In this document: positions 1-15,393 of the stretch, one piece after another
Layout: each line of letters begins with the position of its first letter
Numbering within the stretch: the first letter of the stretch is position 1
Translations under genes and position numbers: made by a program
The notes under the pieces: generated by a model
What the model was told of the DNA's origin: nothing
Database searches by the model: none
What the model saw: only the letters and a program-made list of their open reading frames with translations
Assembly (NCBI RefSeq): GCF_020567425.1
Contig: NZ_JAJCVJ010000002.1
Location: 1,219,068 to 1,283,067, forward strand
Source: Salinirubrum litoreum
Lineage (GTDB): Archaea > Halobacteriota > Halobacteria > Halobacteriales > Haloferacaceae
Direction: 5' to 3'
Length of the DNA: 64,000 bases

Positions 1-221
1 GCTTCTCGGAGATCGAGTCTGCGCTGGGAATCTCGCCGAACACGCTCTCGGAGCGCCTGAAGGAGTTGACGGCGACCGGGTTGCTCACGCGGTCCGCGTA
101 CAACGAGATCCCGCCCCGGGTGGAGTACGCCGCGACCGACCGCGCCGAGGCACTGTTTCCGGTGTTCGGCCACCTCGCAGACTGGGCGCGGAGTCACGAA
201 CTGGACACACTCGAAGCGTGA
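1..221 (+). CDS. HxlR-type winged-helix regulator, C-terminal part
   Basis: The gene is cut by the window edge, and only its last 72 codons are present (reading from base 3). The visible part has a recognition helix (ISPNTLSERLKEL), a wing containing the PPRVEYAATD stretch, and a final amphipathic helix ending in HELDTLEA. This pattern (EIPPRVEYxxT) is characteristic of the HxlR/MarR-like family of small DNA-binding regulators. Its target cannot be told, because the neighbour upstream is outside the window. The call rests on the conserved wing motif. Confidence 0.8.
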   Translation, partial: FSEIESALGISPNTLSERLKELTATGLLTRSAYNEIPPRVEYAATDRAEALFPVFGHLADWARSHELDTLEA

Positions 222-11808: not shown

Positions 11809-13590
11809 TCAGTCGGCCAGCGCGTCCAGCCGGAACTCGAAGGCCGCGACCGGCAGTTCGAGGTCGTGTTCCACGAGGACGGCCGGATGGAGTTCTCCAA
11901 GGACGCCGACCGACTCGCCGTCGATCACGACCTCGGCACACCGGCCGTCGAGGAACGACGGGTGGTCGGTCGCCGGCGTCTCGAGGTCGACGCCGAAGTC
12001 ACGACAGAGCGCGGCGAGGCGACCCTTCGCGTCTTCGTAGGTCGCGTCGGTCCGCGCGAGGACGCCCGCGACGTGGCGGGCCTCCGCGACGCCGGTGTTC
12101 TCCGACTCGTCGCGCTCTGCGGCGAGTCCGATCTCCGCTAAGTCCTGCGGGTACGCACGGTGGGTGTTGTTCTCCAGGACCATCGTCAGCGACGGGAGCG
12201 CCCAGGTCCGAAGCTGGGTGTACTCGTCGCTGTACGGTTCGGTGATCGCCACCGGGTCGCCGCCGCCGAGGATGTCCGTCCCCGGTTCGACGCCCATCCG
12301 GTCGTAGTTCTCGGTGTCGGCGATCATGTGGAAGTTCAGCAGGTCCTCGAAGCCCAGCCCGACGAGACTCCGCCGGACCGCGTCTTCCAGCCGGGATCGC
12401 TCGTGGCGACCGCCGATGGTGCCGATCTCGGGGTAGCTGGGGACCAGGGTGTTGAAGCCGTAGGCACGACCGACGTCGTCGATCAGGTCCAGCGGGTGGA
12501 GCACGTCGGTCCGGTACGGCGGGATCGACACCTCGTAGACGGCCTCGTTGGCGTCGATCTCCTCGGGTGCCGGGCGGGTCGCCGCGTCGGTCTCGCGGGT
12601 CGTGTCCTGCTCCTCGTCGGTCGGCGCGAGGCGGGCGTCCAGCCCCGAGCGCTCGAACAGGTCGACCGTCTCGCGGATGTCCAGTTCGACGCCGAGCATC
12701 GACTCGATGCGCTCGTGGGCGACCGCCTTCGTCCGCACCTCGAAGTCCGGCCGGTCCAGCGTGCGGTCGGGGTACTCGACCTCGACGCGTTCGACCGTCG
12801 CGCCGCGTGCGTCCAGCGCGTAGCAGATGATCGCACACATCCGGTCGATGGTCCACTGGTCGGTGCCGGTGAGTTCGACGAACAGTTCACGCGAGTCGGT
12901 CGAGACCTCGGTCCGGCGACCGTTGATGACCGGCGGGAACGAGAACAGGCCGAGTTCGTCGTAGATCGCCGGATAGCGGTCGTAGCTCTCGACGATGTCG
13001 GCGTAGGTCTCGCCGGTCGGGTGGTCGGTCAGCACCTCGGCGGGCGTCATCTCCCGGTCGGAATCGAGGGGGACGAACGTGTCGCCGTCGGGGTCGACGC
13101 CCCGGTAGGTGATGGAGTTCGACGCCCCCTCCTGTAAGACCGCGCCCTTCAGCATCGTCAGGTCGTGGATGCCGATTGCACCCTTCGCCCGCTTGCGCCC
13201 CATCGTCGCGTGGAGTTTCTCCTGCAACTGGATCAGCGAGTCGAGGCCGGCCTCGTCCAAGTCGACGCCGCGGATCACCGCGCCGGTGACGTACGGGCGC
13301 TCCTCGGGGACCGACTCGTCGACCTCGATGGTCCAGTCCGGATCGTTCGCGTTCGGGACGTAGACGCCCCGGTCGTCGCCGTACTGGTAGCGCAGGGAGC
13401 GCGCCACACCCTCCACGGAGAGGCGGTCGAGGCGGTCGGGGCCGAATTCGAGTTGCATCAGGCCCTCCTCGGTGTCGCCCTCGTACTCCAGGCCGAGCGC
13501 GAACAGGTCGTCTTTCAGTTCGTCGTCGCTCTTCTCCTCGTGGCCCGTGAGTCGGCGGAGTTCGTCGGGGTCGACGTCGACGACGGGCAT
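11809..13590 (-). CDS. pheT: Phenylalanyl-tRNA synthetase beta subunit
   Basis: This 593-aa protein is the archaeal/eukaryal-type beta chain, shorter than the bacterial one of about 800 aa because it lacks the N-terminal EMAP domain. The B3/B4 editing region (KGAIGIHDLTMLKG around 150, RGVDPDGDTFVP), the B5 domain (about 285-390) and the catalytic-like core ending EFRLDALAD are visible. With PheS it forms the (alpha-beta)2 enzyme that charges tRNA-Phe; the beta chain edits mischarged Tyr. It overlaps the pheS stop by 1 nt (TGATG). Confidence 0.96.
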   Translation of the reverse strand: MPVVDVDPDELRRLTGHEEKSDDELKDDLFALGLEYEGDTEEGLMQLEFGPDRLDRLSVEGVARSLRYQYGDDRGVYVPNANDPDWTIEVDESVPEERPYVTGAVIRGVDLDEAGLDSLIQLQEKLHATMGRKRAKGAIGIHDLTMLKGAVLQEGASNSITYRGVDPDGDTFVPLDSDREMTPAEVLTDHPTGETYADIVESYDRYPAIYDELGLFSFPPVINGRRTEVSTDSRELFVELTGTDQWTIDRMCAIICYALDARGATVERVEVEYPDRTLDRPDFEVRTKAVAHERIESMLGVELDIRETVDLFERSGLDARLAPTDEEQDTTRETDAATRPAPEEIDANEAVYEVSIPPYRTDVLHPLDLIDDVGRAYGFNTLVPSYPEIGTIGGRHERSRLEDAVRRSLVGLGFEDLLNFHMIADTENYDRMGVEPGTDILGGGDPVAITEPYSDEYTQLRTWALPSLTMVLENNTHRAYPQDLAEIGLAAERDESENTGVAEARHVAGVLARTDATYEDAKGRLAALCRDFGVDLETPATDHPSFLDGRCAEVVIDGESVGVLGELHPAVLVEHDLELPVAAFEFRLDALAD

Positions 13591-15095
13591 CAGTGCAGCA
13601 CCTCCGTCTCCCGCAGGAGGTCGAGATCACACAACGTCCCGTGGACGTCGCGGATGTCCTCGAAGCCGTACATCAGCATGAGTAGACGCTCTAAGGCGAG
13701 TCCCCACGCCATCACGTCGCACTCGACGCCGAGCGGTTCCAGCACCTCGTCGCGGAACATCCCGGAGTTGCCGATCTCGATCAACTCTCCTGTCTCGGGG
13801 TGGTGGCCGAACAGTTCGAAGCTCGGCTCGGTGTACGGGTTGTAGTGCGGCTTGAACTGCAGGTCGGTGATGCCGAACTGGCGGTAGAACTCCTCGAAGG
13901 TGCCCATCAGGTCCCTGACGGAGAGATCCTCGGCCATCACCCACCCCTCGATCTGGAAGAACTCCAGCAGGTGGGTCGCGTCCAGCGTGTCGTTCCGGTA
14001 CACCTTCTCGACCGAGAAGCACCGTTTCGGCTCCTCCAACTCGCCGATCTGGTGGCCGGAGAGGTACCGCATCGACAGCGAGGTGGTGTGGCCGCGCAGG
14101 GCGATCTCGCGGGCGAAGTCCTCCGACCACGGCGAGTGGTAGCCGTCGCCGTCCGGGCCGACGCCGTTCCGGTGGGCGTCCTCCACTCTGTCCAGCAGGT
14201 CTTCGGGCAGGTCCTGCATGGGCGGCGTGTCCAGCACGAACCGGTCCCAGTGCGTGCGGGCAGGGTGGTCCTGCGGCATGAACAGACAGTCGTTGATCCA
14301 GAAGTCCGCGTCGGCGTGTGGCCCCTCCATCTCCTCGAAGCCCATCCCGACGAGTACGTCCTTCACGCGGTCGGCGGTCTGCCGGAGGATGTGGGTCTTG
14401 CCGCCCCGCTGTTCGGGGGCGTCCGCCTCGACGTTGTACTCGGTGAACTCCACGTCGCGCCACTCGCCGGAGGTGAGCAGTTCCGGCGTGAGGCGGTCGA
14501 CCGTCTCGGCCGTCTCGATCCCCTCCATCATCGCGGTGACGCCCGCGTCCGTGAGCGTCACCGATCGGACCGTCGTCTCGTCGCGGTCGACGAGGCCACG
14601 CCGTGCCAACTGGGCCAGCACGTCCTCGTCGTCCACCGACTGGCCGGCGTCCAGCGACGCGAGGGCGTCGGCCTCGGGGTCGGCCTCGGGGTCGGCGTCC
14701 GGGTCGGCGGTGATCTCACCGGAGTCGATCGTGCCGTACCCCTTCCGGGCGTAGTTCGACAGGGCGATGTCCACCGCCCCGCCCCCAAGACCGGACGCGC
14801 CGATGACCTGTCCCATCGATGCCGGGTCGTCGTCGGCCCCGGCGTCGAGTGCGGCCCGGTAGAGCCGAACTTCGGGGAGGCCGTCCGCGAGATACTCGTA
14901 CCCCTCGTCGGTGACTGTCGCGGTCGTCTCGGTCGTCTCGGCCACGCTCAGCAGGCCCTCGTCGGCCAGTTCCGTGACCGCGCCGTACACCGTCGCGGGG
15001 TCCGTGTCGGTCTCGTCTGCTACCTCGGCTATCGTCTTCTCGTCTGTCGCGCTGGCGGCGCGGAGTACCGCCGCCTGTGTCTGTGGAAGCTTCAT
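13590..15095 (-). CDS. pheS: Phenylalanyl-tRNA synthetase alpha subunit
   Basis: This 501-aa archaeal-type alpha subunit has winged-helix modules in residues 1-180 that contact tRNA, with an acidic low-complexity DPDADPEADPEAD loop near residue 135. The class II catalytic domain follows, with DATHLLEFFQIEG (motif 2), NPYTEPSFELFG (Phe pocket) and GLALERLLML (motif 3). It is first in the pheS-pheT operon. Its ATG lies 177 nt beyond a putative Phe-rich leader peptide and several hairpins, suggesting leader-based control. Confidence 0.96.
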   Translation of the reverse strand: MKLPQTQAAVLRAASATDEKTIAEVADETDTDPATVYGAVTELADEGLLSVAETTETTATVTDEGYEYLADGLPEVRLYRAALDAGADDDPASMGQVIGASGLGGGAVDIALSNYARKGYGTIDSGEITADPDADPEADPEADALASLDAGQSVDDEDVLAQLARRGLVDRDETTVRSVTLTDAGVTAMMEGIETAETVDRLTPELLTSGEWRDVEFTEYNVEADAPEQRGGKTHILRQTADRVKDVLVGMGFEEMEGPHADADFWINDCLFMPQDHPARTHWDRFVLDTPPMQDLPEDLLDRVEDAHRNGVGPDGDGYHSPWSEDFAREIALRGHTTSLSMRYLSGHQIGELEEPKRCFSVEKVYRNDTLDATHLLEFFQIEGWVMAEDLSVRDLMGTFEEFYRQFGITDLQFKPHYNPYTEPSFELFGHHPETGELIEIGNSGMFRDEVLEPLGVECDVMAWGLALERLLMLMYGFEDIRDVHGTLCDLDLLRETEVLH

Positions 15096-15272
15096 GTGAT
15101 TTTGTCGTGTCTCGTGGTCGCTCGGCAGGTAACTGTACCGAAGTTGCGGAGTCGGCGGGGTCGCGGGTCGGCGGCGGCCGCAGGCCGACGCCGCACCGAA
15201 CCGACTCCGGCGGCCGGAGGGGTCGGTTTCGACCGGGCGTGACCGGTGAGTCGCGCCCGGCGTCCGCCGACC
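15096..15272 (-). promoter_or_regulatory. Structured pheST leader with alternative stems
   Basis: This is the GC-rich region between the leader ORF and pheS. On the minus strand, the last leader codons (CCCGGCG, 15285-15279) can pair with CGCCGGG (15262-15256). That second segment overlaps CCGGGCG (15260-15254), which can instead pair with CGCCCGG (15239-15233). The shared bases 15256-15260 make the two stems mutually exclusive. A further strong hairpin lies at 15199-15228 (arms AACCGAC/GTCGGTT plus an inner TCCGG/CCGGA stem), and a 6-bp one at 15167-15189. No U-run follows any stem, so if this is an attenuator it may act on translation. Confidence 0.55.
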
Positions 15273-15356
15273 TCACCGCGCCGGGAAGAAGAAGCCGAAC
15301 CCGTGGGTGGTCGGTTCGCGGGCCACACTGCCGGACGCGTCGGGTTCGGGCGTCAT
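15273..15356 (-). CDS. Putative Phe-rich leader peptide upstream of pheST
   Basis: This is a 27-residue ORF whose end reads HGFGFFFPAR then TGA: four TTC codons within the last eight codons and none elsewhere. A BRE/TATA-like element (GGAAAC-GCTTTTCACC) lies 23-37 nt upstream of its ATG, so the transcript should begin at this ORF. It precedes alternative stem-loops and then pheST. The bacterial pheST operon uses an analogous Phe-rich leader peptide, but I know of no established archaeal counterpart, so the role is inference from position and codon content. The frame is also open further upstream. Confidence 0.6.
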   Translation of the reverse strand: MTPEPDASGSVAREPTTHGFGFFFPAR

Positions 15357-15378
15357 ACGCCGACGTGTGCGAGGCGCG

Positions 15379-15393
15379 GTGAAAAGCGTTTCC
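15379..15393 (-). promoter_or_regulatory. BRE/TATA of the pheST leader transcript
   Basis: The minus strand reads GGAAAC followed by GCTTTTCACC. This is a purine-rich BRE plus A/T box 23-37 nt before the leader ATG at 15356, as expected for leaderless initiation. No comparable box precedes pheS itself: the A/T run just before its ATG is too close to serve. Confidence 0.55.

Follow-up and report, generated by a model that had tools for sequence, protein, structure and literature searches.

Our results suggest that pheST of Salinirubrum litoreum is preceded by a ribosome-position switch that would tie expression of the two genes to the supply of Phe-tRNA, a reading to which we assign a probability of roughly 0.7. 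Comparison with relatives argues very strongly for a leader that is functional and translated, encodes Phe and carries two RNA structures, and Phe-dependent sensing by the ribosome appears highly probable; a transcriptional read-out is a guess, to which we give somewhat less than an even chance. The original prediction, made from the window (the whole stretch of 64,000 nt analysed), was that the logic of a bacterial-type Phe leader peptide operates at this pheST. That core idea is strongly supported by comparison among relatives, but the specific alternative stems proposed with it are not conserved. At the level of sequence, the comparison demonstrates the ORF with its Phe codons, two hairpins and how they are spaced, the promoter, and the association of all these with pheS.

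The features of the locus are listed in Table 1. The leader ORF of 27 codons with its Phe-rich end, the TGA that follows and the 177-nt spacer to pheS were all located exactly as predicted, and a profile search of the S. litoreum genome found no comparable second match to the leader. The BRE/TATA-like element noted at leaderless spacing was likewise confirmed: in 125 of 133 relatives the T tract begins at -29 or -30 from the leader ATG, which places the probable transcription start at or next to that ATG. Independent support for this start comes from dRNA-seq of Haloferax volcanii, where the pheS mRNA has a 5'UTR of 150-250 nt containing a 26-aa uORF, with no additional transcription start site and no role given (PMC4983044). 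Leaders of the Haloferax-like group encode 26 aa and are followed by a 131-nt spacer, which would fit the length of that 5'UTR. A leaderless promoter closely resembling that of the leader also precedes pyrG (CTP synthase) of S. litoreum (78% over 59 bases; locus L002, 1500-1560).

Table 1. Features of the pheST leader region in the window (remarks give supporting observations or status)
Feature	Sequence	Position	Strand	Remarks
Promoter P1	BRE-like GGAAACGC + TTTT box	15382..15393	-	Leaderless spacing; TTTT box 15385-15382, at -29 from the leader ATG, with the BRE-like element in front
Leader ORF, 27 codons	MTPEPDASGSVAREPTTHGFGFFFPAR + TGA	15273..15356	-	Profile match E 2e-10; ATG 15356, TGA 15275-15273; Phe at codons 20 and 22-24
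Hairpin 1, 5' strand (codons 3-6)	CCGAACCCG	15341..15349	-	Covariation with 15295-15303
Hairpin 1, 3' strand (codons 18-21, including Phe20)	CGGGTTCGG	15295..15303	-	Covariation with 15341-15349
Phe run (codons 22-24)	TTC TTC TTC	15285..15293	-	Proposed sensor
Hairpin 2, stem P1, 5' strand	GGTCGG	15267..15272	-	Directly 3' of the stop codon
Hairpin 2, internal loop, 5' side	CGGAC (YGGAY)	15262..15266	-	Conserved
Hairpin 2, stem P2, 5' strand	GCCGGGCG	15254..15261	-	
Hairpin 2, stem P2, 3' strand	CGCCCGGT	15232..15239	-	
Hairpin 2, internal loop, 3' side	CGAAA	15227..15231	-	Columns invariant in the alignment
Hairpin 2, stem P1, 3' strand	CCGACC	15221..15226	-	
Promoter P2, possible basal pheS promoter	GGTACAGTTACCTGCC	15124..15139	-	Degenerate match to GGAACCGCTAACTGAC; weak in the window
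pheS, phenylalanine--tRNA ligase alpha subunit		13590..15095	-	
pheT, beta subunit		11809..13590	-	One-base overlap with pheS

We compiled 161 distinct regions upstream of pheS, drawing on whole genomes of the order to which S. litoreum belongs as well as on 80 named haloarchaeal records, and scored as a leader any ORF that begins with ATG, spans 18-60 codons and has three or more Phe among its last 14 codons. Such a short ORF lies upstream of pheS, on what would be the same transcript, in 136 of these regions. Five mononucleotide shuffles gave 0, 0, 1, 0 and 0 leaders, the opposite strand gave 2, and the 30 regions upstream of hisS gave none; nor was a His-rich leader found before hisS. Absence of the ORF or of its Phe run from close relatives, one of the outcomes that the original prediction had named as speaking against it, was not observed: both occur in relatives. 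The typical peptide reads M.SEP...GFGFFFAA with a variable middle, and the codon run that precedes pheS, of the GFGFFF type, specifies the very amino acid on which the downstream enzyme acts. Among relatives the Phe codons exchange TTC and TTT, synonymously only, and Phe is kept. Eighty-nine regions were chosen solely on the pairing motifs of hairpin 1 and on the element that follows the ORF, ignoring the ORF itself; in 88 of them the distance between the strands of hairpin 1 leaves one and the same remainder modulo 3, which indicates that the reading frame is kept even though the length of the ORF varies.

Mapped onto a PheS tree, the leader occurs throughout the order and changes state five times; it is best read as ancestral with losses, although the count itself cannot separate gain from loss. 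Beyond the order, 197 genomes sampled from the phylum yielded no match to the leader profile. Of 22 regions without a leader, all but one clear case are devoid of the downstream element as well. In that case, a locus of the Halorubrum group (L182), the ORF has decayed and hairpin 2 is still recognisable (raw coordinates 121-167, minus strand), an apparent intermediate in loss of the module. Two other regions upstream of pheS (L040 and L052) retain hairpin 2 and show a frame shift or an extended reading frame, through either sequencing error or early decay. One contig labelled Pacearchaeota (L069) groups with Natrialbaceae by its PheS and is probably a mis-binned haloarchaeal contig.

Hairpin 2, downstream of the stop codon, is composed of stem P1, an internal loop in which YGGAY faces CGAAA, and hairpin P2. 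Changes on both sides occur in 14 of its 15 pairs; 84% of alignment cells are paired against 62% after shuffling, covariation reaches 0.574, compared with 0.209 after shuffling, and shifting the register never gives a value close to the true one. Stem 2 of the original prediction (CCGGGCG at 15260-15254 with CGCCCGG at 15239-15233) is real in that it corresponds to helix P2 of this conserved element, but not as one of two exclusive alternatives; the prediction had missed both the conserved loop and helix P1. At a strict threshold a covariance model of hairpin 2 yields a single hit in each of 103 genomes out of 293, and about a dozen of these hits, compared with the coordinates of pheS, all lie just upstream of it. 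In S. litoreum the sole convincing place is the pheS leader; a second match (L194, 33.5 bits) was rejected because it falls inside a protein-coding gene. The element matches no family in Rfam, neither T-box nor any other curated covariance model. Two further ideas were discarded: on inspection, the order of bases in the internal loop does not fit a kink-turn, and a pairing between the GFG codons and the CGAAACCG strand is near the shuffled level and is lost in lineages where GFG becomes GSG though CGAAA is kept.

The sequence of the YGGAY/CGAAA loop is far better conserved than the helices around it, so it may be that hairpin 2 serves as a protein site, for PheRS autocontrol, an RNase, RNA polymerase or Spt4/5, which the ribosome merely opens or shields. 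We regard this as rather unlikely: no binder is known, and the two sides of the loop can, we presume, stack as consecutive purine-purine pairs of the G.A type, which may only stabilise the rod. A protein site would in any case be compatible with the ribosome switch.

A second alternative is that the leader and hairpins govern how pheS is translated from the long mRNA, through coupling or reinitiation, rather than transcription. The H. volcanii data agree with this as far as the transcript goes, since leader and pheS share one long-leader mRNA for which no second start site was reported. However, the distance from the end of hairpin 2 to the pheS start ranges from 45 to 151 nt (median 80) and is not conserved, nor was any conserved pairing of the 3' strand of P1 with downstream sequence found, and we consider a translational output improbable. 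The motif GGAACCGCTAACTGAC is mostly found near -42 of pheS in relatives, whether the leader is present or absent, and may be a basal pheS promoter, although none was detected in H. volcanii; since this promoter-like element is kept even without the leader, expression of pheST may not require the leader.

Hairpin 1, which the original prediction missed, lies within the ORF and has the consensus CCGAAYCC/GGRTTCGG, joining codons 3-6 with the codon before GF plus GFG. Its partners change together: CCC is found with GGG at 43 loci and with GGA once, while TCC is found with GGA at 25 and, through G.U, with GGG at 21. Pair 13:20 is C-G in 53 cases, T-A in 27 and T-G in 22, whereas C-A, which cannot pair, occurs once. 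At pair 16:17, 62 of 105 distinct sequences have C-G and 20 have G-C; 82% are paired there, against 48% after shuffling. Several compensations alter the peptide, namely SGP with GSG (CCGGACCCG/CGGGTCCGG), LER with AFE (CTCGAACGCG/CGCGTTCGAG), SEP with GFA (GCGAACCCCG/CGGGGTTCGC), EPR with RFG (CCGAACCTCG/CGAGGTTCGG) and DP with RVG (CCGACCC/GGGTCGG), and in every lineage that shows them the Phe codons 3' of hairpin 1 persist. Because several lineages have thus changed the peptide and kept the pairing, the conserved N-terminal peptide motif reflects RNA structure. Predicted pairing of hairpin 1 averages 0.69, against 0.07 at the same loci after synonymous codon resampling. In the window alone it is only 0.11, and folding energy there is unremarkable (z 0.12); folding of the single sequence being uninformative, the case for the structures rests on comparison. 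A functional microprotein or an arrest peptide acting by its sequence would also account for a recognisably conserved peptide (M.SEP...GFGFFF). This explanation seems very improbable to us, as RNA pairing explains both the N-terminal motif and GFG, the SGP/GSG and LER/AFE swaps keep that pairing, and the middle of the peptide is variable.

The two covarying hairpins flank the Phe codons at a fixed spacing in relatives. The GGA of hairpin 2 lies 18.7 nt (sd 1.8) beyond the last Phe codon; the stop codon and hairpin 2 move oppositely (r -0.69), where independence would give an sd of 3.2. None of 5000 permutations of the spacing matched this, a value made optimistic by the kinship of the sequences. 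Counted from the final Phe codon (its first base), stem P1 lies at 15 nt (IQR 14-16); counted from the stop codon, at 5 nt. In bacterial toeprints the ribosome front lies about 12-13 nt past the first base of the A site; by this measure a ribosome held on the Phe codons would end just short of P1, and one at the stop codon would have to open it. Hairpin 1 has its 3' arm immediately ahead of the Phe run; that arm would be covered in the Phe-held state and about to be freed at the stop codon.

For the ribosome switch we infer the stall, the direction of the response (on under Phe starvation) and the read-out. Transcription would begin at the leader ATG and the ORF would be translated from a leaderless mRNA. 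When Phe-tRNA is short, the ribosome would stall within the FFF codons, cover the 3' strand of hairpin 1 and hold that hairpin open, and end just before hairpin 2, which could then fold and stay folded. With ample Phe-tRNA it would reach the stop codon and invade P1 of hairpin 2, and hairpin 1 would re-form behind it. Folded hairpin 2 would thereby mark starvation, most likely letting RNA polymerase run on into pheST; with hairpin 2 unfolded, the untranslated spacer might be exposed to factor-dependent termination. FttA/aCPSF1, the obvious archaeal factor for such a read-out (PMC11616081, PMC8116511), is the candidate. We found no pheS entry in a paper on H. volcanii termination sites.

A classical attenuator, in which the Phe leader peptide selects between an antiterminator and an intrinsic-terminator stem, would share the leader ORF, the Phe run and the cognate gene with the locus, and a hairpin found in the window only (AACCGAC/GTCGGTT) could compete with P1. 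The mutually exclusive stems first proposed are, however, not what relatives conserve. Stem 1, in which the end of the ORF (CCGGCG) pairs with CGCCGG, is present in the window, but among 107 relatives pairing of this kind (10.1) does not exceed the shuffled value (9.8, sd 2.8), and no downstream competitor hairpin is conserved among relatives (mean z 0.35). The observation that no U-run follows the stems was correct and extends to all 108 regions examined, none of which has TTTT in the 60 nt after hairpin 2. With no U-run, no conserved competitor and the ORF-end stem at chance level, classical intrinsic termination is unlikely, and an attenuator of this type retains only a slight chance. That the near-perfect inverted repeats of the arms are instead a DNA operator for a transcription factor, the ORF being incidental, is hardly credible given the RNA-only T.G at one pair in 22 of 105 distinct cases (C.A once) and the conservation of the reading frame and Phe codons.

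Attenuation in response to amino acids, exerted through leader peptides, is a textbook mechanism of bacteria and requires transcription and translation to be coupled. We found no described case of archaeal leader-peptide attenuation in the open-access literature searched. Like the Escherichia coli pheST and pheA attenuators, the haloarchaeal locus has a short leader ORF, a Phe run, a cognate gene downstream and RNA structures around the Phe codons. It differs from them in its leaderless mRNA, in hairpins that are not mutually exclusive by pairing, in the lack of a U-run terminator, and in its conserved purine-rich internal loop and possible second promoter. Hairpin 1 resembles the 1:2 pause hairpin of trp and his attenuators in overlapping the sensor region, where a translating ribosome would open it, but its 5' arm lies at the very start of the ORF, in codons 3-6. 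T-box riboswitches also place aminoacyl-tRNA synthetase genes under the control of amino-acid supply, whereas sensing here would proceed via a translated ORF, with no match in Rfam. A conserved example in genetically tractable haloarchaea would allow direct tests of coupling, leaderless translation and factor-dependent termination. It would mean that the attenuation logic either arose convergently or is very old, and would suggest a possible role for uORFs already mapped in H. volcanii.

A second synthetase gene appears to carry a comparable leader. In H. volcanii, Babski et al. (2016; PMC4983044) listed a 23-aa uORF, with transcription start site evidence and no function, before the tryptophan--tRNA ligase gene HVO_A0127. 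The lengths of the two uORFs (26 aa for pheS and 23 aa for the Trp ligase) are those of the Haloferax-like leaders found here, although the published table gives no role, Phe/Trp codon pattern, structure or conservation (PMC4983044). Paralogs of trpS in Haloferax and other haloarchaea are preceded by leaders such as MVSTSRATCWRWRSTWEVDSIAV (23 aa), MRSALRTWRWQTPGERTVS and MTTAPWRWWSPLSGADSPAVVVAAA, and at these loci (L222-L261; for example L223, upstream of 1477) a Trp-rich leader with WRW is conserved. A hairpin (TCCGCTCTC/GAGAGCGGA) joins codons 3-5 with a stretch 3' of the Trp codons and covaries (for example G-C 15/A-T 5 and G-C 8/C-G 7 among 21 distinct pairs); Rfam has no match for the region. 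A leader rich in the gene's own amino acid and of similar layout before a second synthetase gene lends independent support to our reading of pheST, and makes the trpS-paralog leader a second candidate archaeal leader-peptide system. Whether amino-acid-sensing leaders of this kind, with a leaderless ORF between two hairpins toggled by the ribosome and a U-run-free archaeal read-out (FttA or loop-based RNA antitermination), form a general haloarchaeal system that covers at least pheST and a trpS paralog is, in our estimate, an even bet; if they do, Archaea would possess ribosome-mediated attenuation on a platform of its own. Following the Trp-leader hairpin is a further conserved region (AGTGTCG / CGGCGCTCACTCGCTTTCT).
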